Shown here in pieces: positions 1 through 28,281 of a stretch of 40,168 nucleotides of DNA. The notes below the pieces were generated by a model that was not told where the DNA came from, made no database searches, and saw only the letters and a program-made list of their open reading frames with translations. Where the stretch lies: assembly GCA_023954815.1 (NCBI GenBank), contig JAGSHB010000034.1, positions 1 to 40,168 on the forward strand. Reading direction: 5' to 3'. The translations under genes and the position numbers were made by a program. The first letter of the stretch is position 1. Each line of letters starts with the position of its first letter. Source of the stretch: Myxococcales bacterium (GTDB lineage: Bacteria; Myxococcota_A; UBA9042).

Positions 1-681
1 CCCGACGAGCACGACTGGCATTCCCATCTCCCGGCGGTGATTTTTCGGCAGCGCGCCCAGGAGCAACGTCAGCAATACGGCTGCGATCCCAAACGGATAG
101 GGCAGACGATCGGCCGGTGACAGCTCGGCGGTGGCGACGCCGACCCCCCACACCACGAGAACTAGCGCCGCGGCTAGCGCAGCGGCGGTCGCCCCGCTGG
201 GTCGCCAGGCCAGGAGGACCACGAGCGCGGCACAGACCGCCAAGAGGCTGCCAGGGGGCAGAGGAGGGGAACGCTCCGATCGATCGCCCGCGCGATCGAC
301 ACGCCGTATCACAGCGCCAACTGCGGTGAGCAGCGGGGCCGGTGGCCGGGAGGCGCTCGGGGCGACCTCGGCAACAGGCGGCGCACTGCATCGCGCACCG
401 TTGGTCAGCTTCACGTCGATCCGCCCACCGCCTTTGAGGTGCAGCACGATTGCCACGATCTTGGCCGAGATCTGGGCGTCCCAGCGGGCGATCGACTCGC
501 TTGGCCACGCCGCGTGCAGGGCGTTCTCAAGCGCGGCCTCGTCCACATCTCCCAGCCACACGCAGCCGGTCTGGACGGGCGCCGTCGCGGCGGCCTTGCC
601 GCTGACCACGACGCTCAGGACGAGGGTCAGCGCGATCGCGAGCGCAGCGAAACGAGCCTGGTTCCGAGGTGCTGGGCCCAT
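1..681 (-). CDS. Secreted/membrane protein, 3' end beyond window
   Basis: An open frame of 227 codons starts at the ATG at 681 and is still open at base 1, so the C-terminus is missing. An AGGAGG ribosome-binding site at 686-691 lies four bases before the ATG and fixes the start. Residues 1-33 form a signal peptide or anchor (MGPAPRNQARF, then a hydrophobic run ending in SGKAAA). A soluble part of about 110 residues follows, with one pair of cysteines. Three hydrophobic segments come after it (LLAVCAALVVLLAW, then AAALAAALVLVVWGVGV, then FGIAAVLLTLLLGAL), so the protein probably continues as a polytopic membrane protein. The order of signal peptide, small extracytoplasmic domain and membrane segments resembles the N-terminus of the protein at 6061-8406. 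Homology to that protein is inferred from architecture. The function is unknown. Confidence 0.8.
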   Translation of the reverse strand, partial: MGPAPRNQARFAALAIALTLVLSVVVSGKAAATAPVQTGCVWLGDVDEAALENALHAAWPSESIARWDAQISAKIVAIVLHLKGGGRIDVKLTNGARCSAPPVAEVAPSASRPPAPLLTAVGAVIRRVDRAGDRSERSPPLPPGSLLAVCAALVVLLAWRPSGATAAALAAALVLVVWGVGVATAELSPADRLPYPFGIAAVLLTLLLGALPKNHRREMGMPVVLVG

Positions 682-6060: not shown

Positions 6061-8406
6061 TCAGGGATGTCGGCCTGACTGGTCTCCCTCACCGAGGTAG
6101 CGCCACATCCGCAACACAACCGGTTGGCCGTCACGCCGCAGGTGCGAGGCGTAGTTCGTGTCCCACGCCTTCATCGGAAAACGACGCTCAGCGACTAGGC
6201 GCCACTTACCGGTAGCAAGAACGCGGGCACAGAGTGGGTCGCGCTCAGGGCCCGTCGGATTGCGGCTACACTCGATGCCCTCCATGAAGATGGCGCAGCC
6301 CGACCGCAGGGCGTCGTCCACGTGCGGATTCCAACGAGCCGGCGCCTCGGCGAACCGGCGCTTGTTGCGGCCCTGCGCCGTCGTCCATCGGCTCTGCACG
6401 GCAGAGGGGCCTCCGGCACCGAGTGAATCGGCAGCGATCGCCTCTTTCGTTTCGACCGATAGCGGGATAGAGGCCCACGACAGCCCAGCGGTCGACACAT
6501 GGCTGGAGACCCTCGGCGCGCGCGGCGTCGCCATCACCGCCTCCACCGGCCGAAAACGTTCGATCACGGAACATTCGTGTGGTGCGAAGGTCCGCAGCTG
6601 GTCGTAGAACTGCCGCTCCTGTTGCACGAATGCGCTGTCGTCCTCGATGGCTGGCCGATGCAGCCAGGGCGACAGGATCAGCAAGGCGACAAAACCGACC
6701 GCGGCCGACCGAGCCGCAGGCCCGCGCGCCCACAACAGCTCCACGAAGCGCCGGGCGGCGGGGGCGGCCAACAGCGCCATGGGGACGAGCGCATGGAGCT
6801 GATAACGAGCGTTCATCGCTGGATTGCGCGGCACCACCACCCCGTGGGCGACGATAAACCCGCACAGCCAGGCCACCAAGAACCCGGCCCGCTTCGGGCT
6901 CTGACGATAGACCAACCACCCCCCCCACAAGATGAGCGGGGTCCAGACGGGCGGAGTCAGCGCCCAGGCGAGCAGGGGATTGTAGTCCGGTCGAAAGAAC
7001 ACCGTCAGGCCGTTGCTCAACGTCGACCACACCAGCCCGTCGGAGACCGAGTCCATCTGGTGCGTCAGCAGGTCGACGACCCGAGCGACACCCGGGACCA
7101 GCACGCAGAGCCACAGTGGGGCGGTGCGCCTCGACAGCTCGCCATCGGTCGCCATCCAGATGGACATGAACAGCAGGGGGATGAACAGCACGTTGAGCGG
7201 TCGGGCGCCGAGCGCGAGCCAGACAAAAGCCGCCAGGGCGATGAGCGCCAGGCTGCGTCGGCGCGTTGCAGTGGCCGCGGCATAGACGGCGGCGAAAGCC
7301 CCTGAGGACAGAAAAAGCGAGGGGATGAACAGCGCGTCCGTCGCCGCGAATCGAATGTGGTGTGGCGACAGCGCCAGCAGGGCCGAGGCAATCACCGCGG
7401 TGCGGATGTCTTTGAACAAGCCAGCGGCGTGGGCGAACAGGGCGACCGGCGTCAGGCAGGCAAGCACGAGGTGGGTGCGATAGACCAGATCATCGAACCA
7501 CAGAATGCCCGGCAGCTGGTCTGCAAGCAGCGCAGCGATGCGGTCGCCGCTGAGCATCAAAGCGAGCGGGCTCTGGCGCCCCCATGACCAGGCTGTCGCC
7601 GGGATGCTTGGAGACAACCACACGCGCCAGGCCACGCCGATGGCGAGCGCGACGAGCAGCCACCGCATCGCGGGCCCTTCGGCCCGACGCAGCCGGTCCC
7701 GGACGAAGAAGAGCAGCCACGCCAGCAGCACCGACAACCACACCGACGGTCCCGTCGCCAAGGTCCACCAGGGCTCCTCCTCTGTGTACCCGTCATCAGG
7801 GCTGGAGACCTCGTCCGCTGGTCTCGCCTCACCATCTCGTGGTTGATATTTGGGTGATGACGAGGAGCCGTCTTCGCGTGGACGATCGGCCACTTTGCGC
7901 CAAAGCGCGCTCAGGTCCAACTGCCGCTCACGCGCGATGATGAGTTGCGTCAACGCCACGGTCGCGTCGCGTAGCTCCGGCGAGGCGTGTTGCCAAATGG
8001 CCCCGCGATAGGTCAATGAGAACCAGCGAGTCACTCGGTCGGCCTCGGCAAAAGGCGCAGGGCCGGGCGTTTGGGAGACATGTCGCAGATCGATAGAAGC
8101 TCGCTCGGCTCCATGGGCGAGCGTCACCACCAAGGCGTGCTGTTCGATGCGGGTGTCGCCGATTCGCCAGCGGTGACGCCATTCATCTGGCTGGGCCACC
8201 AGCGCGGACACCACCTGCTCTTGACCGGGCGCCGTCACGTGGGTCGCACCGGAAGCGACGTTGGGGAGGAGGACCCAGAGCAGGGTCATGCACACGGGCA
8301 GGCGGATGCACCGTCGAGAGAGCGACCATCGGACAACTCGCGGCTGAGGCGCTATCAAGGTCTTCCTCTGGATGCTGCGGCCAAGAGGGCCGCGCGGACT
8401 TGCCAT
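6061..8406 (-). CDS. Polytopic glycosyltransferase-like membrane protein
   Basis: A large inner-membrane protein of about 780 residues. A signal/anchor segment (CMTLLWVLLPNVASGA) is followed by an extracytoplasmic domain of about 110 residues, a charged linker (SSSSPKYQPRDGEA), about ten hydrophobic helices, and a C-terminal extracytoplasmic domain with three Cys. Helix number and the acidic first loop (LWFDDLVYR) suggest the GT-C fold of lipid-linked sugar transferases such as ArnT/PMT, but no diagnostic motif is certain. The start is unclear. The ATG at 8406 has no good ribosome-binding site. A TTG at 8358 lies six bases after AGAGGAAG and gives an ideal signal peptide. An in-frame start at 8481 also exists. 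The C-terminus resembles that of the protein at 13213-14919. No partner gene adjoins it. Confidence 0.72.
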   Translation of the reverse strand: MASPRGPLGRSIQRKTLIAPQPRVVRWSLSRRCIRLPVCMTLLWVLLPNVASGATHVTAPGQEQVVSALVAQPDEWRHRWRIGDTRIEQHALVVTLAHGAERASIDLRHVSQTPGPAPFAEADRVTRWFSLTYRGAIWQHASPELRDATVALTQLIIARERQLDLSALWRKVADRPREDGSSSSPKYQPRDGEARPADEVSSPDDGYTEEEPWWTLATGPSVWLSVLLAWLLFFVRDRLRRAEGPAMRWLLVALAIGVAWRVWLSPSIPATAWSWGRQSPLALMLSGDRIAALLADQLPGILWFDDLVYRTHLVLACLTPVALFAHAAGLFKDIRTAVIASALLALSPHHIRFAATDALFIPSLFLSSGAFAAVYAAATATRRRSLALIALAAFVWLALGARPLNVLFIPLLFMSIWMATDGELSRRTAPLWLCVLVPGVARVVDLLTHQMDSVSDGLVWSTLSNGLTVFFRPDYNPLLAWALTPPVWTPLILWGGWLVYRQSPKRAGFLVAWLCGFIVAHGVVVPRNPAMNARYQLHALVPMALLAAPAARRFVELLWARGPAARSAAVGFVALLILSPWLHRPAIEDDSAFVQQERQFYDQLRTFAPHECSVIERFRPVEAVMATPRAPRVSSHVSTAGLSWASIPLSVETKEAIAADSLGAGGPSAVQSRWTTAQGRNKRRFAEAPARWNPHVDDALRSGCAIFMEGIECSRNPTGPERDPLCARVLATGKWRLVAERRFPMKAWDTNYASHLRRDGQPVVLRMWRYLGEGDQSGRHP

Positions 8407-8689
8407 CCCGACGGTCGGTCCGTGCCTCACGACCGCTTCCGTCGCTCCGACTACAGTGGCGCTCGGGCGCGCAAATCTCAAGCTGCCTTCGGTGGCTCAC
8501 TGTCGCACGTTCACCTTGTGTCATCTCGGCCCCTCCCATAGATATGGTCGGCCCGCCCAAAGACCGCCGTCCGTGCAGTGAGACGGGGTTGTGGCCAAGG
8601 CGCATCGGTGTGAGTTGACCATGATAGCTGTTACGCTGACACGCGCTCGCTGTGATTGGCCGATCGGCGAGGCACGTGCAGGGGGGCTC

Positions 8690-13212: not shown

Positions 13213-14919
13213 CTATTTTGGGGATACGTCGTAGAGGCGAAGGTCGATCCGGCCGTCGTAGACGCCGTGTTCGCCGGGTTCGCTGTACCCTTCATACGGA
13301 AACTTAGACCGCGCGACGATGGGTCCCTTCATCCACGATTTTTCACAGCCCTGGTAGCCGACCTGATGACAGTCCAAACTGACGTGATAGAGCACGCACC
13401 CCTGATTGAGCGACGGGATTTGTGCCTGCAACGCTGCGACCGTCGTGGCTTCGTACTGCTCCGCGGAGGTGCCATCAATCACGATCAACCCACCTGTGAC
13501 GAGGCCGTGAATCTCGGAGTCCGGGCGCTGAACTTGCCGGGCGGTCGGGATGATAATCCGGCATTTCGGGCGCTTCGCGACAGCGGCCGCTAGGAAGCGA
13601 ACCTGCCGCTGCATCTCCATGGAGAGCCAGCCAGCTTGCGTCGATCGGTCGGCGATCTCCACGAAGGTGCGGGTCCGATCGAGGCGTTGCGAAGTGAGCG
13701 TCGCGGGGTTGGTGAACAACCCAGTCATCACCACTGCGGCGAACGTGCGACGAAGTGGGCGGCTCGTCCACGTCTGCTGGACGACGCGCCAGCCGAACAC
13801 AGCCCACAAGGCAAGGACAGGTAGCAAGAAGCTCAGATAGCGGACGAGCTCGTAAGGCGCGCGACCGTCGTGACCGGCGGTGTGGTAGGCGCGATAGAGC
13901 GCCAGCCCTGAGATGGCGACAAATCCTGTGTGGATCGGACGACGGTGACCGCTCACGATCCCCAGCACGATGAGCGCGATGACGCCAGGCGACACGGTGT
14001 CCCAGAGGTTGATGAGCAGCGCCAACGTCGATGTGTCCAGCGGGTTGATTGCGTGGAGGACGGCGCGAAGCTCGTGAAAGCGCGCGTACTCGCCGAGGAG
14101 CTCCACGACCACGGCGGGGCTCACGATGAGTAGGGCACCGCCAGCCAGCAGCATACGGTTTTGGCGCCAGTCGCCGATCTTGTCTTGAATCAGCCGCCAC
14201 AGTCGGTCGGCGCGCCGCGAGAATTGAGTCGGCCCCAGCAGCAGCCGCCAGAACGCTAACGCCGCGGCTGGCAGGGCGACAATGGCGGGCTCCTGTCGGG
14301 TGTTCGCTGAGAACATGACGAGCAGCGCTAGGCCAGCCATGCCGGCCCATCCGGGCCAGTCTGTGCGCGTTTTTGATGAAAATACAGTCTGATAGCACAG
14401 AGTGCCGACCATGCCATAGGTGAAGAGTAGCTGGCTTGGGGTCTCTGCGACGGCAGCGATGTCGAATAGCGGTGTCACCGCCAGCGCGAATGCTGCCGCA
14501 ACAGCGGATGTCCAACTTCCGAGTACGTGTGCAGACAACGTAGCGAAGGCGAACACATTGAACGCGGCCAGGGCCAGGTTCATCCGGTGGATACCCTCAA
14601 GCGGAGGGACAAAGCCGTGCCCGGCCAGCGCTCGAAAGGCGCCGGCGTTCAGGAGCGGATCTCGCAAGTCACCCATTACTGTGCTGGCTGCGACGAGGCT
14701 CCCGCCCTCCGTCAAGGTGGTGCCCAGCTCCCAGACCTCCTGTGCGGGTAGGAATTGAAACACGGCCGCACCAAGGGCGACGCCCGCGCCGATCACGACC
14801 AAACCGATGCGTTCGGCGGCGCCGCCTCGAACGGCGCGGTGGATGCATAGCGCCAGGGTCAGCAGGCCGAGCACCGCGTTGAGTGTGTAGTAGAGCTGCA
14901 AGCTGGCCCCGGTGTCCAC
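13213..14919 (-). CDS. Polytopic membrane protein, GT-C-like
   Basis: A 568-residue membrane protein with about ten to eleven hydrophobic helices starting at residue 8 and a C-terminal extracytoplasmic domain of about 110 residues. The tail carries Cys residues and an FPYEGY...DGRIDLRLYDV segment. The same order (Cys, D/E-Cys, Cys, FP, LR+Y/W) closes the protein at 6061-8406, so the two appear related. A role in transferring sugars or other groups from a lipid carrier would fit the helix arrangement, but no signature residue proves it. The start is the GTG at 14919, which has no clear ribosome-binding site and could be wrong by a few codons. Flanking gaps leave it monocistronic. Confidence 0.75.
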   Translation of the reverse strand: MDTGASLQLYYTLNAVLGLLTLALCIHRAVRGGAAERIGLVVIGAGVALGAAVFQFLPAQEVWELGTTLTEGGSLVAASTVMGDLRDPLLNAGAFRALAGHGFVPPLEGIHRMNLALAAFNVFAFATLSAHVLGSWTSAVAAAFALAVTPLFDIAAVAETPSQLLFTYGMVGTLCYQTVFSSKTRTDWPGWAGMAGLALLVMFSANTRQEPAIVALPAAALAFWRLLLGPTQFSRRADRLWRLIQDKIGDWRQNRMLLAGGALLIVSPAVVVELLGEYARFHELRAVLHAINPLDTSTLALLINLWDTVSPGVIALIVLGIVSGHRRPIHTGFVAISGLALYRAYHTAGHDGRAPYELVRYLSFLLPVLALWAVFGWRVVQQTWTSRPLRRTFAAVVMTGLFTNPATLTSQRLDRTRTFVEIADRSTQAGWLSMEMQRQVRFLAAAVAKRPKCRIIIPTARQVQRPDSEIHGLVTGGLIVIDGTSAEQYEATTVAALQAQIPSLNQGCVLYHVSLDCHQVGYQGCEKSWMKGPIVARSKFPYEGYSEPGEHGVYDGRIDLRLYDVSPK

Positions 14920-15565: not shown

Positions 15566-15602
15566 CCGGTCCCCTCGCCACGATGCCCGGTGAGGGGACC
15601 GG
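15566..15602 (+). promoter_or_regulatory. Leader hairpin covering the ribosome-binding site
   Basis: CCGGTCCCCTC (15566-15576) pairs perfectly with GAGGGGACCGG (15592-15602): an 11-bp GC-rich stem with a 15-base loop. The right arm contains the G-rich ribosome-binding site for the ATG at 15607, so folding would block initiation. No T-run follows, which argues against a terminator. Confidence 0.6.
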
Positions 15603-15606
15603 AGAC

Positions 15607-17022
15607 ATGTGCCGACACGAAGCCCAGTTGAGCCCGAGAATTGAGCTTCCTACGAATCGCCTGGCACTTAGCGAGGCCGGTCACCCCACGGAGGTGCGAG
15701 CGTGCTGGGTTCGCAAGTTCGTGTACCCTCGCGGCATGCTCGCTGCCGCCGTCACCATCGCAGTCGTCATCCTTCCCGCGTTGCTATGGGCAGACGTGGC
15801 CCTGGCGTCTGCGTCTGTCGGACTACACCATCCGCGCTTGAATGTGCCGCTGTACACCATGAGCCAGTGGACGACCGGCTTGGTCGCGCTCGCCGCGCTG
15901 TCACTCACTATCGCCGCCCACCGATCCCGCCACGACGGCGTTCGCCGCCCGGTGCTTCGCGCGCACATCAAGCTCACCCACGCCTTACCCGCCCTGATTC
16001 AATGCGGCATCTACGCGTACTGGGCACTCTATTGGCGACCGCTACCGGGATTGCTGGCGTTCATCGGCTGGCAGTTGATCTGGGCGTTTTCGTTGGACTG
16101 CGCGCTTCGGCTGTGGCGATACGGTCAGTGGACCGTCGGCCTTGGTCCCGCGCCAATCGTCCTGAGCGCGAACCTCATCGCCATGTTTACCCCGACCGAG
16201 TGGCCCATGTCGGTCGCGATCATCACCTTGGCACTCCTGTCCCGGGAGTTCATCCGCATCGACGGTCGGCACATCTTCAACCCCTCGGCCTTTGGTGTCG
16301 CTGCGATAGGCGTCTGCAATCTGATTTGGCCGCACCTGGGCAACGCGGACCGAGCTCACGAGTTCAGTGTGCCCCCGAACATGACCGAGGTTGTCGTCGT
16401 GCTTGCGCTGATCGTCCAAGTCCGCCTGCCGGTCGTGTTGTCGACGCTTGGCGCCGCCGCGGCCTTGTGGCTGCTGGAGGGCATGGGAATGCCGGTCATG
16501 AGCCCGACGTGGGCGCCCGTAACCCTCGTCTTGCTGCTGTTTCTCACGGACCCCGCAACCATCCCCAAGGGGCCAACCGGCCGGCTGCTATTTGGTCTCA
16601 TCGCGGGAACTCTCATGGGTGTGATCGGCGTCGGATTGGAGTCTGCGGGCAACTCCGACTTCTACGCCAAGGCGATACCCATCCCGCTGACCAATCTGCT
16701 CACGCCGGCGATCTCTCGCTGGGCTGACGCGGTCGACCATCGGCTACCCCAACTGGCTGACACCCTGAATCCGCGCCACAATCTGCGGCATGTCGGCCTT
16801 TGGGTCGCGGCCATCGCGTTGCTAGTGAGCAGCGGCGTCAAGTCGAACCAAGTCAGTCGTCACACGCATCGGGTCCACCGCGTCAATCGCACGCCATGTC
16901 TTCAGCTCGATGCAGGAGAGGTCGACTGCGAGCGCAACCCGCTGTTCTGTCAGCCGCTACGCTTCGATCTGGAGGTGCGGTGCTGGTGGCGCAGACTCCA
17001 CGAGCCAGACGAGGCTGGCTAA
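15607..17022 (+). CDS. NQR2/RnfD-like membrane protein
   Basis: A polytopic protein of about 471 residues with roughly ten helices. It carries two blocks typical of the NQR2/RnfD/RnfE family: GRHIFNPSAFGV (residues 220-231) and FLTDPATIPKGPTGRLLFG (about 313-331). In true RnfD/NqrB a Thr in a GAT-type motif near the C-terminal helices carries covalent FMN. No such motif is seen here, and the region instead reads FYAKAIPIPLTNLLTPAIS. The C-terminal tail is extended, with several Cys (PCLQLDAGEVDCERN and FCQPLRF). No other Rnf or Nqr subunit is nearby, so it is not part of a standard complex. The start is uncertain: ATG 15607 has GAGGGG upstream inside a hairpin, while 15583, GTG 15694 and ATG 15736 are alternatives. 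It is the first gene of the trio. Confidence 0.8.
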   Translation: MCRHEAQLSPRIELPTNRLALSEAGHPTEVRACWVRKFVYPRGMLAAAVTIAVVILPALLWADVALASASVGLHHPRLNVPLYTMSQWTTGLVALAALSLTIAAHRSRHDGVRRPVLRAHIKLTHALPALIQCGIYAYWALYWRPLPGLLAFIGWQLIWAFSLDCALRLWRYGQWTVGLGPAPIVLSANLIAMFTPTEWPMSVAIITLALLSREFIRIDGRHIFNPSAFGVAAIGVCNLIWPHLGNADRAHEFSVPPNMTEVVVVLALIVQVRLPVVLSTLGAAAALWLLEGMGMPVMSPTWAPVTLVLLLFLTDPATIPKGPTGRLLFGLIAGTLMGVIGVGLESAGNSDFYAKAIPIPLTNLLTPAISRWADAVDHRLPQLADTLNPRHNLRHVGLWVAAIALLVSSGVKSNQVSRHTHRVHRVNRTPCLQLDAGEVDCERNPLFCQPLRFDLEVRCWWRRLHEPDEAG

Positions 17023-17028
17023 CGGTCT

Positions 17029-17187
17029 ATGCTAGGTGTCGAGCTAAGCGGAGACTTTGTGTTCTGCACCGGTCTGCTGCGATGGGACGACCAGAGGAGC
17101 AACGTGTGGGGGACGGCAACCGAATTCGCGCTCTCGCTCCTAGACCCGAACGGGCGGTTGCGCCATGCTGGCCCGGCAGTGCCGTGA
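17029..17187 (+). CDS. Possible small ORF, 52 aa
   Basis: An ATG frame seven bases after the RnfD-like stop encodes MLGVELSGDFVFCTG and ends in GRLRHAGPAVP. It fills the space before the next gene but has no clear ribosome-binding site. It may be a small protein, or a frameshifted remnant of the tail of the preceding gene. Confidence 0.25.
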   Translation: MLGVELSGDFVFCTGLLRWDDQRSNVWGTATEFALSLLDPNGRLRHAGPAVP

Positions 17188-17203
17188 GCCCAATCGGAGC
17201 GCG

Positions 17204-18211
17204 ATGTCTCCCCCTCAACACCGTCGTTGGCAGCCTTGGTTGTGCGTCTCGCTGGGCGTCGCGATCTTGACCGTTGGCTCGGTGGCGGGGGCCGCGCCTG
17301 TCCTACCGGGCAGCGCGACGAAGCGCATCGAGGCCGCGTTGGAGGGCACCGCAAAACAGACCGGGTTGCCGCTGTCGTCAGGCAAGATCCAGCGCGACCG
17401 TGTGCTGGCGCGCTGGTGTGACGGTCCCGCATGCTTCGACGCGACGTTGACCGCTCCAGGGACTTGCTCCGCTCCGGCGGGTCCCTTCTGTGTGACCTGG
17501 GGCCAAGCCCTGGAGGCGCCAGCTCCACAGCGTCTCGTCACAGCGCTCACGGCCCAACTCAAGACCCTGGGCGGCTCCATTTGGCAGCAGCCGTCAGACG
17601 GTGGCGTGTCCAAGTCTCTTCAACGCGCCCTTCGCCAACGAGGTGCGCCGCCCCCACCCAAGCAGCCCGCGGCACTGCGGCTGCCCAAGACCGACGCTGC
17701 ACCTTTTCAGATCCTGCTGGGGCTGGGTGTACTCGGTGCCCTGGCGTTGGCCATCGGTCTTCGCCGCCCACCGCAGGCGCCTGGATCGGGACCTGCGCCA
17801 AGCGGCGTACGGAGCTTCGCGCTGGCGAGCTCCGTGCTCTTTGGGGTGTTGTCTTTGGGAGTGCACCACGCGTGGCCGCTGTTTGTGATGGACGTCTACA
17901 GCTATGCCTACACGTCTGCGAGTCAGATCATCGCCCTGGACCCCGACGGGCGCGTCCACAATGTTCGAACCATCCGCCAATGGCGCTGTGACGCGCTGCC
18001 TGAGCACGACCTGATCCCGTCTCACGAGGTGTGTGGCCACTACGATGACATTGGCTCACGCGACCTCTTTCGCCTCGCGCACATCCGCAACGCACCGGCG
18101 CCCAGTCAGGGTGCGCGACGATTTAGACTGGTCCGGCGGGTCTGGCGCTTTGAGGGGACGGCGATCGAGCAGACCGATTGCCCGATCACGGTGTGTGAGG
18201 TGCGCCCGTGA
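17204..18211 (+). CDS. Secreted domain plus two helices, family of unknown function
   Basis: A 335-residue protein: signal peptide (residues 1-27, WLCVSLGVAILTVGSVAGA), a Cys-containing extracytoplasmic domain (28-130), a Pro/Gln linker, two membrane helices (about 168-188 and 205-225), and a C-terminal extracytoplasmic part with further Cys (QWRCDAL, HEVCGHYDD and TDCPITVCEV). Domain 28-130 aligns with the minus-strand protein at 20995-21711: LP, IEAA, Cys, Cys, P...C, AGPxCVxW, L..AL and IW fall in the same order. The four Cys probably form disulfides. The ATG at 17204 has GGAG five bases upstream and begins a clean signal peptide; an in-frame ATG at 17165 does not. The stop overlaps the next GTG start (GTGA). 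The function is unknown. The context suggests a membrane complex with its two neighbours. Confidence 0.82.
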   Translation: MSPPQHRRWQPWLCVSLGVAILTVGSVAGAAPVLPGSATKRIEAALEGTAKQTGLPLSSGKIQRDRVLARWCDGPACFDATLTAPGTCSAPAGPFCVTWGQALEAPAPQRLVTALTAQLKTLGGSIWQQPSDGGVSKSLQRALRQRGAPPPPKQPAALRLPKTDAAPFQILLGLGVLGALALAIGLRRPPQAPGSGPAPSGVRSFALASSVLFGVLSLGVHHAWPLFVMDVYSYAYTSASQIIALDPDGRVHNVRTIRQWRCDALPEHDLIPSHEVCGHYDDIGSRDLFRLAHIRNAPAPSQGARRFRLVRRVWRFEGTAIEQTDCPITVCEVRP

Positions 18212-19566
18212 GCGCACTCAGTCCACACGGGCCACACACCCGTCACATCGCGCGAATTGCCGTCGCCACGATGGCTTGCCACGATCTCGTCTTGCTGACT
18301 AACGGCGTGCTCGGGATCCCCTTGGGGGCGCCTGACTGGACGTCCCCCGCCCTCTATCAATGGTTGGCGTTTCATCCCCACGTGTTGCTGGCCACGTCGT
18401 TGGTGGGGCTGCTCGCGGCCGGCATCTTCGCGGCTGGGCGCGCCCCGCTTCGTGCTGGCACCGTGACCCTCATCGCGTTGCATTTGGCCTACGAGACGTT
18501 TGCAGGCGTCATGGCGACGCTCCCTCCCGAGCCCATCCTGACCGGCGCGTGCCTGAGCGGTTGGCTGCTCGGCACGGTGTGGGGACGCGGCGTCGCGCGG
18601 CGCGATGTGGGCGACCCGCGTGCGGTCGAGCAGTGGTTCGCCGAGATGGGGGCTGTCGGCCTCATTGGTATCACCTACTTCATGGCCGGGGCGAGTAAGA
18701 TGATTCGGTCGGGTCTCGAGTGGGATCATCGGGTGATCTGGCACCTCCTGCAGAGCTTGACGGATCTGACCGGCAACGGGCCAGTCGATCGTTTGGTCGC
18801 CTGGCTAATGACCCAGCCGACCATCGCCGTTGGCTTGGCCGCCGGCACCGTCCTCATTCAGGTCGCAGCGCCGCTCATGCTCGTCGGCCGCCGCACACGA
18901 CAAGTCCTGGGCACCCTGTTGCTCGCCATGCACCTGTCCATGCTGGCGCTCGGCACGTTGGTACACGTGCCCATCGCCGCCTTTGCGATCGGGTTCTTAT
19001 TGCCATGGCCGCGACTGCTAGGGCGGCCCTCAACGACCGCAGATCCCCATGCCACAGCGCCCCAGGACGTGGTCGATACGCAGCGACGCCGCGCACTCAC
19101 CCTGCAGTTCGCAGGTGTGGGCGGACTGCTCGTGGTCCTGGCGTGGGCGCTGCCGGTCGATCAGTGGATGGCGCATCGCTCCACGCAGCCGCTCAAGCCC
19201 TGGCGACTGATCCGCGAACTGCCCGATGAGTCAATGCGAACGGAGGCCCTACGCCCAGATGAGTGGCGCGCCATCGCCCCATTGAAGCCGGGCGCGGCAG
19301 TGGCGGGCTGGCGTCTGAAGTCAGCAGGGATCGGTCATGCCCAAGAGATGGTCTCGCTGTGGCGTCGCGGCAACGTGGAGCTGCGGGTCACGGTCTGGCT
19401 AGACGCAACGGACGAGGCGCACCCGCTGCGGCTGAGCTACGACAAGACGGATCCAGCTGCGCGTGCCCCGGGCGCCAAACTCCTCGCGGCGCTCGAGCCG
19501 ATCCTCAACACGCCCCGACAGTGGCCGGCGCGGATGAAGCGCGCGGTCGCCACGCCGTCACCGTAG
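18208..19566 (+). CDS. HTTM/DoxX-like membrane protein with extracytoplasmic tail
   Basis: A 452-residue protein with about eight helices and a C-terminal soluble domain. Blocks typical of HTTM (vitamin-K gamma-carboxylase-like) and related quinone-linked membrane proteins are YFMAGASKMIRSGLEW (157-172) and MHLSMLALGTLVHVPIAAFAI (241-261). In characterised gamma-carboxylases this fold uses reduced vitamin K; whether a quinone is used here is unknown. After the last helix (about 302-317) the tail (residues 320-445) contains GWRLKSAGIG followed by strands and an AKLLAALEPIL helix. This resembles the small domain of the proteins at 17204 and 20995. The GTG start at 18208 overlaps the upstream TGA by four bases, so the two genes are translationally coupled. 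Confidence 0.78.
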   Translation: MSALSPHGPHTRHIARIAVATMACHDLVLLTNGVLGIPLGAPDWTSPALYQWLAFHPHVLLATSLVGLLAAGIFAAGRAPLRAGTVTLIALHLAYETFAGVMATLPPEPILTGACLSGWLLGTVWGRGVARRDVGDPRAVEQWFAEMGAVGLIGITYFMAGASKMIRSGLEWDHRVIWHLLQSLTDLTGNGPVDRLVAWLMTQPTIAVGLAAGTVLIQVAAPLMLVGRRTRQVLGTLLLAMHLSMLALGTLVHVPIAAFAIGFLLPWPRLLGRPSTTADPHATAPQDVVDTQRRRALTLQFAGVGGLLVVLAWALPVDQWMAHRSTQPLKPWRLIRELPDESMRTEALRPDEWRAIAPLKPGAAVAGWRLKSAGIGHAQEMVSLWRRGNVELRVTVWLDATDEAHPLRLSYDKTDPAARAPGAKLLAALEPILNTPRQWPARMKRAVATPSP

Positions 19567-19789
19567 CTCACTTGGGCCGCCATGAGTTCCCTGCCGCACC
19601 TTCGTGGTTCGCGTCGTGTGGGCGAGCGCCCCGAGGTGCCTTCAGTCGACAGCTGGCGGATCCGTCAGTTGGTGGTGCTTTCCGCTCGTCCTATCATCGG
19701 CCGAAGACCCGCCGACCAAGGAGCTTTGGGGGTGGGCGCCGACCAGTTCGTCGGCAAGGGTTATATGGTGGGGGATGAGTGGAATTTGT

Positions 19790-20680
19790 AGTTGTTTTAG
19801 ATTGATGTGGCCGGGCTGGGCGGAGCCTGCGTCAGCGTCAGCAGCGATGAATCCTACCGGCTCACGGGCTGGCAGAAACCGGAGCCGGTCTTTCAGGTTG
19901 CCGACTTCTGAGATCCGAGAAGGGCGACGAACTGACATTCCGGACTCGTGACGTCGATGATCGAGGCCTGCGTGCGCGACCCACTGCTTTGCGCTTATGT
20001 CGGCCGGCAAAACCGCCAACTCAGCAAGCACTTGCACGCCAGCCACCTCCCCGGCTCCGGGGACGCTTTGCAGCAGATTGCAGAGTCGGTCGTGGTCCTT
20101 GTCGTGAGCCATCACCAACAGTGCGGAGCCTTCAGCGCGCTCAACTCGCTTCGTCAGCTCGGCTACCCCAATGGCCACATCCTCACTGACCAGGCGACAG
20201 CAGAGACTGACCGCATCGCACTGCTTCAGCCGAGTCTTCTCCGCAGCTAGCCGCAGTCGCAACGACTTGCAGTGACGGCTCCGCGAGCACGGTTCAAACG
20301 CCGCCCGACTCGGCGGCCGCCAACTCATCCAAGGCATCCGATCACAGAACGCCAACAACACCAGCGCATCCGTCGGATCAGTCTTCTTGCGAGCCAGCAT
20401 GACTTCGCCAAAATGTGCGACACCTTGACATTGACCACCATCACCTCGAAGCCATCGGCCTCATGCAGAAGTACGTCGATATCAGGCTGATAGCCCTCCG
20501 TTGTTTCGACCGCCAAGCGGAGCGGCCGAACGCCACCTAGGTCTCGATTGAGCCTTTGGTAGCCGGCCGATGAGTTCGGGTCGTCCTTCACCCGATCGTG
20601 TTGTCGATTGTCTCGCCGCGCTACACATACAGTCTCAGCGTCGACGTCAATGCCGCCGTACTTCGACCGCCGATGAATGT
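19790..20680 (-). pseudogene. IS110-family transposase, frameshifted
   Basis: The N-terminal part (from about 20660) reads YGGIDVDAETVCVARRD and later RLAVETTEGYQPD, holding the first Asp and the Glu of the DEDD catalytic set. Near 20395 the frame changes, and the second part starts ARKKTDPTDALVLLAF, which carries the remaining Asp residues. It continues with the C-terminal IS110 blocks LLQSVPGAGEVAGVQVLAEL, KQWVAHAGLDHRRHESG and RISEVGN. After that the sequence degenerates before the expected C-terminus. The intact gene would encode about 330-350 residues; here it is split and cannot give a functional enzyme without recoding. IS110 elements lack long inverted repeats, so the ends of the element cannot be placed. 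Confidence 0.85.
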
Positions 20681-20970
20681 CTCGGCAGACTGGCTGCGCG
20701 GCACCAACACCGCCGACATTCGATGCAGCATTGCTCATACAGTTTGGTAGGAGCCGATCTCAGGGGTTTGTTCTAGGCGCAGCGCAGAGATTCTGTCCTA
20801 GCGCGTGGCGAACAGTCATCGCGCTGTGAACAAGACGGTCAGCGGCGTGCGTGTTCGATCTCGCCAGGCCCTCGCGGCTGCCCACTGCCCGCTGACCGGT
20901 CAGCGTTCATCTTCCTCATACTCCGGATCTGGTTCATCCCAGGGCTCCGCCGGGTCGGCTGGGCGCTGCA

Positions 20971-20996
20971 GGATCGGAGGGCTGGATCGGAGGGCT
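20971..20996. repeat. 13-bp perfect tandem duplication
   Basis: GGATCGGAGGGCT occurs twice head to tail (20971-20983 and 20984-20996). The second copy overlaps the stop codon (20995-20997, minus strand) of the gene that follows. Confidence 0.9.
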
Positions 20997-21711
20997 AGGA
21001 GGCGTCTCCGTCCAGGAGCGACGACTCGCTAGGCTCTTCATCGCTCTCTGCGCTTGAGCTCGCCGGGTCGTCGTCAGCGTTCGGCTCTGGAGGGGCCTCG
21101 GCCTCCGGCTCGTCGGTCACTCGAAACAGCGCGAATGTTGCCGCGGCGGCGGCGATCAGCGCGGCGATCAGCAGCATCGTCGAGCTGTCCTCCTCGCGAG
21201 GCTGGTCTTCCGCTCCCGGCTGTGGTTGCGGCGACTCCGCTGTGTGAACCACGTCAGGCTGCTTCGGACGGGCGGCGATGGTGTGCCAGATCGTGGCCGG
21301 CTTGTCCCCACGCAGCGCCGCATACAGCGTGGCCTTGTCCGCTGGCGCTGCTGCTTTCCACACGACACACCAGGGCCCCGCCTTGTCGCCCTTGCAGCCC
21401 TTGTCCGGGTCGGATAGCACAACGTCGTGACAGCTCCCCTCGCTGGCGCACACCTTGGCGCTCACGCTGACCTTAGCGACCCGAGCGCTGTCGAGTCGCC
21501 ACGCGGGGGCTGCGCGCAAGAACGCGGCTTCGATGGTCTTCTCGACACCGGCTGGCAGCACGCGGGCGTCCTGATCAGGGCCTGTGGGCTGCGAGCCATA
21601 CGCGCTGCTGGTCCACATCACGGCAACGAGCACGCACGTCACCGCCCAAGGTCGGGCAGCGACGTCGGTCAAGGGCGGTCGAACAAGCATGGGGTGTACG
21701 AACTGGATCAC
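20995..21711 (-). CDS. Secreted single-helix paralogue of the 17204 protein
   Basis: A 238-residue protein with signal peptide (PWAVTCVLVAVMWTSSAYG), an extracytoplasmic domain (about residues 38-130), a Pro/Gln/Glu linker, one membrane helix (about 165-183, MLLIAALIAAAAATFALF) and an acidic Ser/Asp/Glu-rich cytosolic tail. The domain carries WRLDSARVAKVSVSAKVC, a Cys pair, P..GC, AGPWCVVW, LYAALRG and TIWHTI in the same order as residues 28-130 of the protein at 17204, so the two are paralogues. The GTG at 21711 is chosen because AAGGAG lies six bases upstream; the ATG at 21690 has none. The tail could bind a cytosolic partner. The function is unknown. Confidence 0.8.
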   Translation of the reverse strand: MIQFVHPMLVRPPLTDVAARPWAVTCVLVAVMWTSSAYGSQPTGPDQDARVLPAGVEKTIEAAFLRAAPAWRLDSARVAKVSVSAKVCASEGSCHDVVLSDPDKGCKGDKAGPWCVVWKAAAPADKATLYAALRGDKPATIWHTIAARPKQPDVVHTAESPQPQPGAEDQPREEDSSTMLLIAALIAAAAATFALFRVTDEPEAEAPPEPNADDDPASSSAESDEEPSESSLLDGDAS

Positions 21712-24242: not shown

Positions 24243-25259
24243 ATGACCCAACACGCCGCAAGCTTGCTATTTGCCTTGTGTCTGCTGTCGACCTGCACGC
24301 TCGGCTGTATCGCAGAGGGGCCGGACGCCGCACCGGAGGTAGACGCTGGTCCGTGGATGGGGCCAGCCTCGCCGACTACCCTCGACTTTCTGGTCACATC
24401 GATGTCGTTCGCTGTCCCGGAAGGCATCCAGGCGAGCAGCAAGACGGTGGCCAACCCCTGCGGGGTGAAGAAGGGCACCGACAACACTCTGTACGAGCCC
24501 TTGGTTCTTGACGGCCTGAAAATCGATGGCTTCGATCTCGACGGCACAGACACGCAGGGTGACGGCATCTGCCCGCACACGGACTACGTCAGCCCGAGCG
24601 GAACCAAGGGCGTCGATTACGGCTTCCTGCACGTCATGGACATGATCCGCCCGGTCCGCCCCGGTCAGACCGTTGAGGTCGTGCTCAAGTCGGCGCCGGC
24701 CCAGGGCTTGATGCGCATCGGCCTGCGACTCAAGGGCGTCGATGACCTGCTCGAGGACGACGACGTCAGCGTTCAGATTGTGACCACCGCAGAGACCCCG
24801 CTGCTGGGAGCCGACGGTCAGATCCTCGCCGGCAGCTCCGTCGCGGTCGACCCGGATCCGGCGTTCCACTCGACGCTGCCAGGGCGCATCGAGGGCGGTG
24901 TCCTCCACGCCGGCCCCGGAGACGTCACCATGGGCAAGATAAACCTGCTCGTCGCCACGGACCGGGTCATTGCCTTCAAGAACGTCCGTATTCGGGCGGC
25001 TCTCAAGGCGCGGCCGACCGGCGGCTACGAGGCCGACGCGATCATCGCTGGTTGGTGGGAGCGTGAGTCGATGAGCCAGGCCATCGGCAAGGCGATCCTG
25101 GCCATTGGCGCCAACCAGGGCGAGTTGCAGTGCGTGCTCGACAAGTACGCCGACCACTCGCTGGACGGCAAGACGTGCAACGCCATGTCGACGATCCTGC
25201 GTGCGAAGGCGGTATCGGGCTTCATCACCGGGCTGCCAGATGGAGCGGGAGAACCATGA
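24243..25259 (+). CDS. Lipoprotein, first gene of the DUF1592/DUF1552 operon
   Basis: A 338-residue lipoprotein. The signal peptide ends in the lipobox LSTCTLGC (Cys22). The mature part is an acidic, beta-rich domain with motifs such as NPCGVKKGTDNTLYE, LDGLKIDGFDLDG and GVDYGFLHVMDMIRP, and a C-terminal stretch with a Cys pair (ELQCVLDKYADHSLDGKTC). No catalytic motif or named family was recognised. The stop overlaps the DUF1592 start by four bases (ATGA), so it is made with the two DUF proteins and likely sits with them in the envelope. GGAG lies about ten bases before the ATG. It may be a substrate-binding or accessory subunit, which is inference from context. Confidence 0.82.
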   Translation: MTQHAASLLFALCLLSTCTLGCIAEGPDAAPEVDAGPWMGPASPTTLDFLVTSMSFAVPEGIQASSKTVANPCGVKKGTDNTLYEPLVLDGLKIDGFDLDGTDTQGDGICPHTDYVSPSGTKGVDYGFLHVMDMIRPVRPGQTVEVVLKSAPAQGLMRIGLRLKGVDDLLEDDDVSVQIVTTAETPLLGADGQILAGSSVAVDPDPAFHSTLPGRIEGGVLHAGPGDVTMGKINLLVATDRVIAFKNVRIRAALKARPTGGYEADAIIAGWWERESMSQAIGKAILAIGANQGELQCVLDKYADHSLDGKTCNAMSTILRAKAVSGFITGLPDGAGEP

Positions 25260-26950
25260 GCGGACGAACACGCCCACAACGCTGGCGGCGAAGGGCCGCG
25301 GCCTGGGTCGCCTTGTCTGTGGCCCTCGGCGCATGCGGTGAAGACGAGCCGAAGGCCGCAGCGACCGAGGTGCTCCCGCCAGCGCAAGAGGTGCGGAACT
25401 TCGCGCCCGGACCGATCGCCATGCGCAGGCTGACCCGCGGGCAGTACGTCGCCAGCCTGCGCGGTGTGTTCGGGCAGGACCTCAAGGTGCTGCCGCCGAC
25501 CGAGGTCGACGTGGCCATGGAGGGGTTGTTGACCGTGGGCGCCAAGGTGGCCTCTGTCACGCCCGCAGGCATGGAGGGCTACCTGCTGTCGGCGCGTCAG
25601 GTCGCGGGGACCGTGCTCGAGGCAGACCGGCGGGATCAGGTGGTGCCGTGCACACCCAAGGATCCCAAGTCCGCCGACGACGCCTGCGCCAAGGCCTTCG
25701 TGCAGGCCGTGGGTCCGCTCCTGCTGCGCCGCGCCCTGCACCCGGACGAGACCCCGACCCTCGTTCAGCGCGCGCGGACCGCGACTGAGAAGCTGGGGGA
25801 CTTCTGGGCGGGGCTCGAGGCGGTGCTGATCGGCTGGCTTATCAGCCCCGACTTCCTCTTCATCCAGGAGCGCTCCGCCGCAGACACGGCCGGCACCGCA
25901 GGGGTCGCGCTCTCTCCGGAGTCCCTCGCGTCGCGCCTCAGCTACTTCTTCTGGGGGCGAGGCCCCGACGCGGCGCTGCTCGCCGCCGCAGCCGACGGTT
26001 CTCTGGCCACCGATGCCGGCTACAAGGCGCAGGTGGTCCGCCTGATCGCTGATGCGCCGAGCCTCGAGCGCGGGGTGCGCGCGCTGTTCTCCGACCTGCT
26101 GAGCCTCGACAAACTGGCCAGCGTCAACAAAGACAACAAGCTCTACCCCGCGTTCACCGCCGCGGCCATCGAGGACGCCCGCGAGCAGACCCTGCGCACC
26201 ATCGTGGATCACCTGCTGGTCCGGCGGGCCGACTACCGTGACCTGTTCACCACGCGCAAGACCTTCATGACCCGGAACCTGGGGCCCATCTACGACGTGC
26301 CGGTGGCCAAAGACTGGTCGCCCTATGAGTTCCCCGCCGACGGCGCACGCGCCGGCTTGCTCAGCCAGGTCAGCTTCCTGGCGCTCAACGCCCGGGCCGT
26401 GCGCTCCTCGCCGGTGCTGCGCGGCGTCTTCGTGCTCGACCGCCTGCTCTGCACGCCGATCCCGCCTCCGCCGCCCGACGTCAGCTTCGACGCGGTCGCG
26501 ACCACCAGCAACAACGCGCCCACCGCCCGCGAACGGCTCGCGGTGCACCGGGTTAACCCGAGCTGCAACGGTTGCCACAAGGTCATGGACAACATCGGTC
26601 TCGCGCTTGAGAACTTCGACGCCGCCGGGCGGTTTCGCACTCACGAGGCGGGCCATGCCATTGACACCAGCGGCGACCTGATGGGCGCGGCCTACGGCGA
26701 TGTCCGCGGCTTCTACAAGGTGCTGCACGACGCCCCGAACCTTGCCAAGTGCATGGTCAAGAAGCTGTTCATGCACAGCGTCGGACGCGAATACACGGGG
26801 GCCGAGGTGGAACTGGTCAACGCGCTGAACGCTGACTTTGCCAAGAGCGGCTTCGACTTTGTCGCGCTTATGCGCGAGATCGCCTTGAGCCACGGGTTTC
26901 GTGCCACGGAGGGCCCCGTGCTCCGTGATGACAAGGAGGTGCGCCCATGA
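25256..26950 (+). CDS. DUF1592 multidomain haem-motif lipoprotein
   Basis: A 564-residue protein with signal peptide and lipobox (LSVALGAC, Cys at about 27). It carries the characteristic domain series of this family: DUF1587-like MRRLTRGQYVASLRGVFG, DUF1595-like FVQAVGPLLLRRALHPDE, DUF1592 around LIGWLISPDFLFIQE and SRLSYFFWGRGPD, DUF1588 around LGPIYDV and SFLALNARAVRSSPVLRG, and DUF1585 at the C-terminus (KLFMHSVGREYTGAEVELV). A CxxCH haem-binding motif, CNGCH (residues 437-441), lies in the DUF1588/1585 junction. The family is abundant in Planctomycetes and Myxococcota and its function is not established. A haem-dependent role outside the cytoplasm is suggested by the motif and signal. 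Starts and stops overlap both neighbours by four bases. Confidence 0.92.
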   Translation: MSGRTRPQRWRRRAAAWVALSVALGACGEDEPKAAATEVLPPAQEVRNFAPGPIAMRRLTRGQYVASLRGVFGQDLKVLPPTEVDVAMEGLLTVGAKVASVTPAGMEGYLLSARQVAGTVLEADRRDQVVPCTPKDPKSADDACAKAFVQAVGPLLLRRALHPDETPTLVQRARTATEKLGDFWAGLEAVLIGWLISPDFLFIQERSAADTAGTAGVALSPESLASRLSYFFWGRGPDAALLAAAADGSLATDAGYKAQVVRLIADAPSLERGVRALFSDLLSLDKLASVNKDNKLYPAFTAAAIEDAREQTLRTIVDHLLVRRADYRDLFTTRKTFMTRNLGPIYDVPVAKDWSPYEFPADGARAGLLSQVSFLALNARAVRSSPVLRGVFVLDRLLCTPIPPPPPDVSFDAVATTSNNAPTARERLAVHRVNPSCNGCHKVMDNIGLALENFDAAGRFRTHEAGHAIDTSGDLMGAAYGDVRGFYKVLHDAPNLAKCMVKKLFMHSVGREYTGAEVELVNALNADFAKSGFDFVALMREIALSHGFRATEGPVLRDDKEVRP

Positions 26951-28281
26951 GCACTAGGTGGAGCCGCAGGCGTTTCTTGCGAGGCCTCGTCGGGGGCGCC
27001 GCGGTCACGGTGGGGTTGCCGCTGTTCGACGCGCTCTTCGACGACAACGGCGAACTGCTGGCCGCGGAGGGCAAGGCGCCCGCCCGGTTCGGAACGTGGT
27101 TCTGGGGTTGCGGCATGAACCCACAGCGCTGGGTCCCGACCAAGGACGGGGCTGGCTACGACCTACCCCCCGAGCTGGCCATGGGCCTCGAGGGGCTGTC
27201 GAACAAGGTCAGCGTGCTCACGGGCTTCGACACGCCGCTCAACGGTCGCAACAACTTCCCCCACTACTCGCCGCTCATGGTCACGTTGACGGGCGACTCG
27301 CCGCTCAGCGACCACCACATCCCGCGCACCACCTTCGACCAGGAGATCGCTGCGGTCATCGGCTCGGAGTCTCGCTTCCAGTCCCTCGACGTGCACGCCG
27401 AGGGCTGGGGCCAGTCTTGGAGCGCCGCGGGACCAGGCGCGCCGATGCCGACCATGGGCTCGCCGCTGAAATTCTACCAGCGTGTGTTCGGTGAGGGGTT
27501 CCAGATCGGCGGTGGTGACTTCAAGCCCGATCCCAAGGTGATGGTCCGCAAGAGCGTGCTGTCGGCGGTTCTCGAAGACAGTAAGCGGCTCAAGAAGGAG
27601 CTCGGCAGCCACGACCGACACCGCCTCGACCAGTACTTCACCGCGGTGCGTCAGCTGGAGAAGCAGCTCGACCTGCTACTGACCGAGCCCCCCGACCTGG
27701 CGGCCTGCAGCAAGCCGGGGAGCACCAGCAAGGGCAAGCCGAACGGCCTCGTCACGCAGGTCGTCGCCAACCACAAGCTGCTGGTTGACCTGATGGTGCT
27801 CGCGCTGGCCTGCGACCAGACCCGCGTGTTCAACATCACCCTGTGGCGCGGCCTGTCGGATGTCCGGTACCCGGGCGAGCAGGTCGGCTACCATCGGCTG
27901 ACCCACGACGAGGCTGTGGACGCCAAGCTGGGCTACCAGCCGCTCAGCCAGCGCTTCATCAAGCAGGCCATGGGGGCATGGCGCCACCTGCTTACGTCGC
28001 TGGACGGCATCCAGGAGGGGGACGGCACGCTGCTCGACCACGTGGCGGTCTTGGCCCACTCCAGCACCGAGTTTCCCAAGGAGCACGGCACGCAGAACAT
28101 CCCGCTGATGCTGGCCGGATCGGCGGCTGGCAAGTTCAAGCCCGGCCAGCACATCCGGGGCAAGGCGTCGCCGAACTCACGGGTCATCCTGACGCTGCAG
28201 CAGGCCATGGGCGTACCTGTGAGCAGCTGGGGTGTCGGCGACAACGAGACCTCCTCGCCGGTTACAGCGCTGCTCGCCTAG
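26947..28281 (+). CDS. DUF1552 Tat-exported protein
   Basis: A 444-residue protein with a twin-arginine signal (RRRFLRGLVGGAAV, residues 7-20). It is exported folded, which usually means a cofactor or metal is bound first. The body shows blocks of the DUF1552 family: FWGCGMNPQRWVP, LTGFDTPLNGR, HYSPLMVTLTGD, QSLDVHAEGWGQSWS, and the C-terminal HSSTEFPKEHG and NIPLMLAGSAAGKFKPG. DUF1552 proteins are distant relatives of DUF1501/sulfatase-like proteins and almost always neighbour DUF1592 genes; the activity is unknown. The ATG overlaps the DUF1592 stop by four bases. The TAG stop is followed at once by the ATG of a decayed desaturase-like gene, so the operon once had a fourth member. Confidence 0.92.
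   Translation: MSTRWSRRRFLRGLVGGAAVTVGLPLFDALFDDNGELLAAEGKAPARFGTWFWGCGMNPQRWVPTKDGAGYDLPPELAMGLEGLSNKVSVLTGFDTPLNGRNNFPHYSPLMVTLTGDSPLSDHHIPRTTFDQEIAAVIGSESRFQSLDVHAEGWGQSWSAAGPGAPMPTMGSPLKFYQRVFGEGFQIGGGDFKPDPKVMVRKSVLSAVLEDSKRLKKELGSHDRHRLDQYFTAVRQLEKQLDLLLTEPPDLAACSKPGSTSKGKPNGLVTQVVANHKLLVDLMVLALACDQTRVFNITLWRGLSDVRYPGEQVGYHRLTHDEAVDAKLGYQPLSQRFIKQAMGAWRHLLTSLDGIQEGDGTLLDHVAVLAHSSTEFPKEHGTQNIPLMLAGSAAGKFKPGQHIRGKASPNSRVILTLQQAMGVPVSSWGVGDNETSSPVTALLA

Follow-up and report, generated by a model that had tools for sequence, protein, structure and literature searches.

A small domain, predicted to be periplasmic, recurs on different kinds of membrane protein in a Myxococcales contig

Introduction

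POTRA, PepSY and SPOR are small accessory extracytoplasmic domains. In the SDP toxin system, SdpA, a small transmembrane (TM) protein, is encoded directly upstream of SdpB, a protein of the HTTM type. We analyzed a stretch of 40,168 nucleotides from a Myxococcales bacterium (assembly GCA_023954815.1, contig JAGSHB010000034.1, positions 1 to 40,168; hereafter, the window), in which segments of five proteins (P0001–P0005) had been proposed, in a preliminary description, to share a small extracytoplasmic domain. As judged from profile comparisons, one domain of approximately 100 residues accounts for the segments, with the tail of the HTTM-like protein P0003 as a divergent copy and that of P0005 as a probable one. 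The domain is a new family among accessory extracytoplasmic domains and is widespread in one phylum, which we took to be Myxococcota.

Results

Four segments of the window, and probably a fifth, belong to one domain family

The two clear copies lie in P0001 (17204–18211, plus strand) and P0002 (20995–21711, minus strand). The ordered motifs described for this pair (LP, IEAA, a Cys pair, a third Cys, AGPxCVxW, L..AL and IW) were all present, and the two proteins were homologous over 160 residues (blastp E = 3e-8), as the preliminary description had supposed. When P0002 was used as the query in relatives of the window's genome, dozens of proteins with a matching N-terminal domain were retrieved, mostly 550–800 residues long. 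A four-cysteine (4-Cys) hidden Markov model (HMM) was built from 45 copies out of the loci fetched, lower-ranked search matches interrupted by stop codons being left out; it scored the two clear copies at 118.0 and 61.7 bits, the latter for P0001. Both copies combined a significant profile score with four cysteines and an upstream signal peptide. In P0004, residues 81–172 were matched at E = 6e-13 by a Cys-free profile that was built from other genomes only and contained no window sequence, and a signal peptide again lay upstream. The protein first described at 6061–8406 is given here as 6061–8481, and both it and the protein at 1–681 (P0005) were assigned to the minus strand.

The segments in P0005, at the contig edge, and in the C-terminal tail of P0003 were compared with a superfamily profile of 110 rows, which included the P0004 row and neither P0005 nor any HTTM tail. 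In a set of seven proteins, the profile matched P0005 residues 48–131 at 1.6e-6 and P0003 residues 355–430 at 2e-4; against 2903 open reading frames (ORFs), P0005 scored 7e-4 and ranked directly below the significant matches, and the HTTM tails of five orthologues scored 1e-3 to 1.1, always at the same C-terminal position, with the proviso that E-values from small sequence sets are not database E-values. All eight segments tested with this profile beat 1000 of 1000 self-shuffles. In hhalign, the HTTM tails reached a score of 40.0 against a column-shuffled null maximum of 14.1 (E 1.6e-7, probability 94%), and P0005 with its homologue reached 22.0 against 16.0 (probability 22%).

The canonical domain was modeled by AlphaFold2 with a mean predicted local distance difference test (pLDDT) score of 92.3, as a helix (19–29), strands (34–41, 45–52, 57–63, 72–74 and 77–81), a helix (89–97) and a strand (106–108). 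In the model of P0003, the tail consisted of a helix (350–355), strands (368–375, 380–387, 390–398 and 407–411) and a helix (416–433), with pLDDT of about 55–90. As the earlier proposal of a shared fold would predict, the order of elements was identical in the two models, a helix leading into three long strands and one more strand before a second helix. The alignment of the tail spanned the middle of the domain and did not cover the first strand and the last Trp; likewise, the tail model showed neither the opening nor the closing strand of the full domain. On profile–profile similarity and the same topology, with the domain ends not covered, we accepted the HTTM tail as a divergent family member. 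P0005 is probably a member as well.

Alternatively, the similarity of the HTTM tail and the edge protein could be a compositional coincidence, leaving just three real copies in the window. The single-sequence E-values against the 2903 ORFs were weak (0.09 for the HTTM tail and 7e-4 for P0005), the tail lacks the last Trp, and P0005, which was compared at the level of sequence, reached the low hhalign probability given above. However, every homologue beat its shuffles, both hhalign scores exceeded their null maxima, the element order of the tail model matched that of the domain, and the full homologue of P0005 in another genome (G003, 715 aa) has the usual layout of signal peptide, domain and polytopic core; we therefore regard coincidence as very unlikely. 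As first proposed, the two clear members were not alone: profile similarity took in all five segments, with P0005 the least firm.

Two subfamilies occur across the phylum

In the core of the domain, a helix is followed by three long strands, then by one or two short ones and a second helix. The 4-Cys subfamily is marked by a 'VLPP' start, four cysteines (Cys88, 94, 106 and 115 in P0002), G(P/x)WCV, L..AL and a late Trp. A 30-row profile found weaker matches across the phylum, twenty of which make up a subfamily without Cys, whose consensus is V-I-P-P-G-x-E ... G-W-x-L ... I ... L-x-H-P ... F-A-V ... W. The two subfamilies were connected by hhalign (98.8%, E 4.5e-17) and were split in the tree with full support in the Shimodaira–Hasegawa-like approximate likelihood ratio test (SH-aLRT). 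Over the 110 collected copies, 42 had all four cysteines, 64 had none and 4 were mixed. This all-or-none pattern would fit two disulfides in an oxidizing compartment, one of which probably bridges the hairpin formed by strands two and three. The columns conserved across both subfamilies were hydrophobic, Pro, Gly or the final Trp, with no conserved polar set.

Sensitive profile searches covered this one phylum. The Cys-free alignment gave a match at E ≤ 1e-5 in 76 of its 379 genomes, with up to nine matches per genome, and the 4-Cys form was nearly restricted to the window's class. When a narrower alignment was searched against assembled genome contigs, four relatives were found, all of them metagenome-assembled genomes labelled Myxococcales, Deltaproteobacteria or Proteobacteria. 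The description of the domain as lineage-specific holds for the phylum as far as searched; the domain is phylum-wide and not local. The window's own genome (G000) holds about nine credible copies, five of them in the window; the others are on contigs C211, C85 (an RnfD-like protein), C254 (a TPR protein) and C137 (a short contig). Tandem domains inside one protein occurred at L125 and L236. One of the 110 superfamily rows, the radical-SAM protein L221 (G000:C58), is probably wrong and was rejected as a false positive, as it has no signal peptide upstream and sits on a very long branch.

In agreement with the earlier description of an unnamed module, the 103 domain copies scanned against Pfam, NCBIfam and PHROGs matched no family above its curated threshold, with scattered single matches of no weight. 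Foldseek of the domain gave no significant match in the PDB (best E 0.49, query template modeling score below 0.4) and nothing among viral models. The domain profile, searched against the sequences of solved structures, hit 3p9v alone (E 0.048), and the domain was not found described in the literature searched.

The domain is attached to several kinds of membrane protein

The domain had been described as extracytoplasmic and as occurring in different membrane contexts, and both points hold. A hydrophobic segment lay just upstream in 102 of the 106 copies having upstream sequence, compared with 9.9% at random places. The domain would be exported by a signal peptide or, in the HTTM protein, placed after the last membrane helix, on the periplasmic side of the inner membrane. 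Gene calls and TM counts in other genomes were simple computations. SGNH/GDSL hydrolase cores behind 3–5 TM helices formed one cluster of 26 proteins (26–28 overall), with Pfam matches down to 2e-9; at L066 (3–2869), two domain-SGNH genes stand in tandem on one contig (G035:C858). GT-C-like cores were polytopic proteins with weak, sub-threshold PMT_2 matches (4e-5 to 3e-4). P0004 itself had no PMT or PMT_2 match in Pfam; relatives reached 4e-5, those shown singly being below the cut-off. Over 550 residues, its core shares 29% identity with the core of a protein in a 13-Mb genome elsewhere in the phylum, which places P0004 in the GT-C-like group. TPR cores with one C-terminal TM gave TPR matches in 14 of the 47 proteins scanned, two cores were RnfD/NQR2-like, the HTTM protein (GGCX fold) also carries the domain, and short forms consist of the domain and a single TM anchor. 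The fused cores are presumably active enzymes.

At L131 (2586–5001, another genome), a short domain-plus-TM gene overlaps a VWA/CoxE-looking gene by 4 bases; at L229 (1–2585, a further genome), such a gene overlaps by 4 bases a polytopic gene, which itself follows a VWA/CoxE-looking gene. P0002-type genes at L259 (3300–6789) and L270 (5871–9009), in C211 of the window's genome and in a congener, lie near genes for thymidylate synthase and dihydrofolate reductase and a ferritin-like gene; this thymidylate synthase/dihydrofolate reductase neighborhood is conserved, unlike that in the window.

The domain tree required core type to change at least three times for each of the GT-C, SGNH and short forms. 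Across the tree, core type changed 20 times, compared with 50.5 times with shuffled labels.

Gene pairs are fused elsewhere

At 7 loci in 5 genomes (L118, L120, L122, L123, L240, L245 and G000:C254), a domain-TPR gene is followed by a polytopic gene on the same strand, overlapping it or a few bases away. These polytopic neighbors were homologous to the cores of L236 and L234 (phmmer down to 9e-37). In these two further genomes the parts form a single protein: L236 comprises a signal peptide, domain, TPR, domain, TM and core, and L234 a signal peptide, domain, TPR, TM and core. Fusion of separate proteins is classical evidence of joint function, and the fusion in L236 and L234 indicates that the TPR and GT-C-like partners work together. 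Pairs in which both genes encode a copy are P0001/P0003 of the window and, on weak scores, those at L027 and L118.

In the window, the RnfD/NQR2-like protein, P0001 and the HTTM protein (GGCX fold) are encoded in a row on one strand (15583–19566), the last two genes overlapping by 4 bases. The RnfD-like protein (15583–17022) is free of the domain; its relative G000:C85 in the same genome, 43% identical, has the domain at its N-terminus, and the gene after the RnfD-like one is that of P0001, which starts with the domain. Where the C-terminal module of P0001 is a separate gene, it stood just upstream of an HTTM gene on the same contig in nine of ten cases, the tenth being near a contig end. P0003 scored 14.1 bits against Pfam HTTM (27.7 needed; E = 0.036); against GGCX structures, Foldseek gave a probability of 1.00, but E was 0.03 and the TM-score only 0.28–0.41. 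Lys164 of P0003 was invariant in 13 homologues.

Layout of the window

The coordinates are collected in the table. The 568-aa polytopic protein at 13213–14919 had no detectable domain in profile searches (E ≥ 0.37); it is the third polytopic protein of a GT-C/DUF2079-like kind and has a similar periplasmic part at its C-terminus. At 19642–20738, separating the HTTM gene from P0002, two minus-strand ORFs look by eye like a broken IS110-type transposase. At 24243–28281, a secreted protein is followed by two proteins resembling, by eye, the DUF1592/DUF1588 and DUF1552 pair, which is presumably that known from Planctomycetes and myxobacteria.

Table 1. Coordinates of the domain-bearing proteins, their domain copies and an adjoining gene in the window.
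Feature	Position	Strand	Description
P0001	17204..18211	+	Signal peptide, 4-Cys domain, TM, TM and C-terminal module; directly upstream of and overlapping the HTTM gene
Domain copy 1 (P0001 residues 31-130)	17294..17593	+	4-Cys subfamily A; HMM 61.7 bits; superfamily profile 1.8e-22
P0001 C-terminal module	17810..18202	+	TM and periplasmic part; separate small protein adjoining the HTTM gene in other genomes
P0003	18208..19566	+	HTTM-like polytopic protein, GGCX (vitamin K-dependent carboxylase) fold; Pfam HTTM E=0.036; Foldseek GGCX
Domain copy 2, divergent (P0003 tail residues 355-439)	19270..19524	+	Past the last TM helix; superfamily profile, AlphaFold2, hhalign
P0002	20995..21711	-	Signal peptide, 4-Cys domain, one TM, acidic tail
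Domain copy 3 (P0002 residues 49-144)	21280..21567	-	Canonical subfamily A copy; AlphaFold2 pLDDT 92
P0004	6061..8481	-	Signal peptide, domain, polytopic GT-C-like core (29% identity to a family found phylum-wide), C-terminal periplasmic part
Domain copy 4 (P0004 residues 80-197)	7891..8244	-	Cys-free subfamily B; profile match
P0005	1..681	-	N-terminal part of a polytopic protein, truncated by the contig end
Domain copy 5, divergent, probable (P0005 residues 42-136)	274..558	-	Superfamily profile, hhalign
RnfD/NQR2-like membrane protein without the domain	15583..17022	+	43% identical to the domain-bearing G000:C85 protein

Discussion

We propose, with about even confidence, that the domain has no catalytic function and serves in the periplasm as a docking domain through which envelope-modifying membrane complexes are assembled. 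Docking appears the best explanation because the domain is common to unrelated membrane proteins, TPR scaffolds and both members of some gene pairs, and an enzymatic role is unlikely because the positions that both subfamilies conserve hold hydrophobic residues, Pro, Gly and Trp. The domain, positioned on the periplasmic face of inner-membrane proteins by a signal peptide or the last TM helix, would bind a protein partner and so join GT-C-like transferases, SGNH hydrolases, RnfD-like and HTTM proteins and TPR scaffolds into such complexes. The contact may be between domains, since both members of a neighboring gene pair can carry a copy. A more specific version, in which copies pair across inner-membrane proteins as a homotypic periplasmic connector of Myxococcota, a phylum-specific plug-and-socket system for envelope modification, seems to us unlikely. 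The preliminary description had offered docking or sensing, and the choice is still a matter of inference; gene pairs and gene fusions favor docking, and sensing gained no support.

Several observations weigh against docking. Both structure predictions were of single chains, sequence may not tell a docking domain from a ligand-binding one, and the GT-C assignments rest on PMT_2 matches below threshold. Several HTTM pairs were wholly without the domain, which is therefore not essential to such pairs. Moreover, most copies stay with their own core type, which also fits a domain tuned to the substrate of each enzyme. The main rival holds that the domain handles substrate, binding a lipid-linked sugar, acceptor glycan or lipid used by the attached membrane enzyme; the commonest cores are transferase- or esterase-like, and the domain keeps to its core type more than expected by chance. 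However, TPR scaffolds, RnfD-like proteins and single anchors carry the domain too, with no evident common substrate, and no polar pocket signature is common to both subfamilies, so we regard substrate handling as possible, if doubtful.

The same tracking of core type by domain type, which is partial, together with low sequence conservation, could be expected of a passive spacer or folding aid retained because the proteins arose by duplication. This is improbable in our judgment, as the repeated forced changes of core type in each of several groups, the copy beyond the last TM of HTTM proteins, the tandem copies and the all-or-none cysteines all argue for a selected module. Those cysteines, and the position of the domain outside the cytoplasm next to a membrane helix, would also suit sensing in the periplasm, with the domain controlling its membrane protein through, for instance, disulfides; yet more than half of the collected copies lack cysteines and no signaling output (kinase or cyclase) was found among the identified cores, making a sensor highly improbable.

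Scattered "hypothetical membrane proteins" of Myxococcota now form one recognizable, profile-searchable set. Because a shared module and gene pairs fused elsewhere link uncharacterized kinds of envelope protein (GT-C-like, TPR, SGNH, RnfD-like and HTTM), their partners can be predicted. One solved copy would give a new reference fold, as the domain has no named family or solved structural analogue.

The cores of the 26–28 SGNH-type domain proteins match SGNH/GDSL hydrolases (PF13472), but these proteins add the new domain and 3–5 TM helices in front; none of this type lies in the window. The P0004-type core shares its many TM helices with PMT/GT39 (GT-C) glycosyltransferases (PF02366, PF13231), to which relatives show sub-threshold Pfam matches; in contrast, P0004-type proteins fall below the curated cut-off and carry the new domain at the N-terminus and a periplasmic part at the C-terminus, the glycosyltransferase label being a prediction. 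The core of P0003 matches GGCX structures in Foldseek and, weakly, the Pfam HTTM family (PF05090), but P0003 is below the Pfam cut-off, and its domain-like tail has no identified GGCX counterpart. The arrangement of P0001 and P0003 resembles SdpA/SdpB in that the gene of a small TM protein lies directly upstream of an HTTM-type gene; this is a lead only, as P0001 has no Pfam or NCBIfam match to SdpA and no toxin gene was seen. Finally, although the new domain has no Pfam profile match and no PDB structure at E < 0.001, it resembles POTRA, PepSY and SPOR in being a small alpha/beta domain that recurs on envelope proteins of unrelated types.

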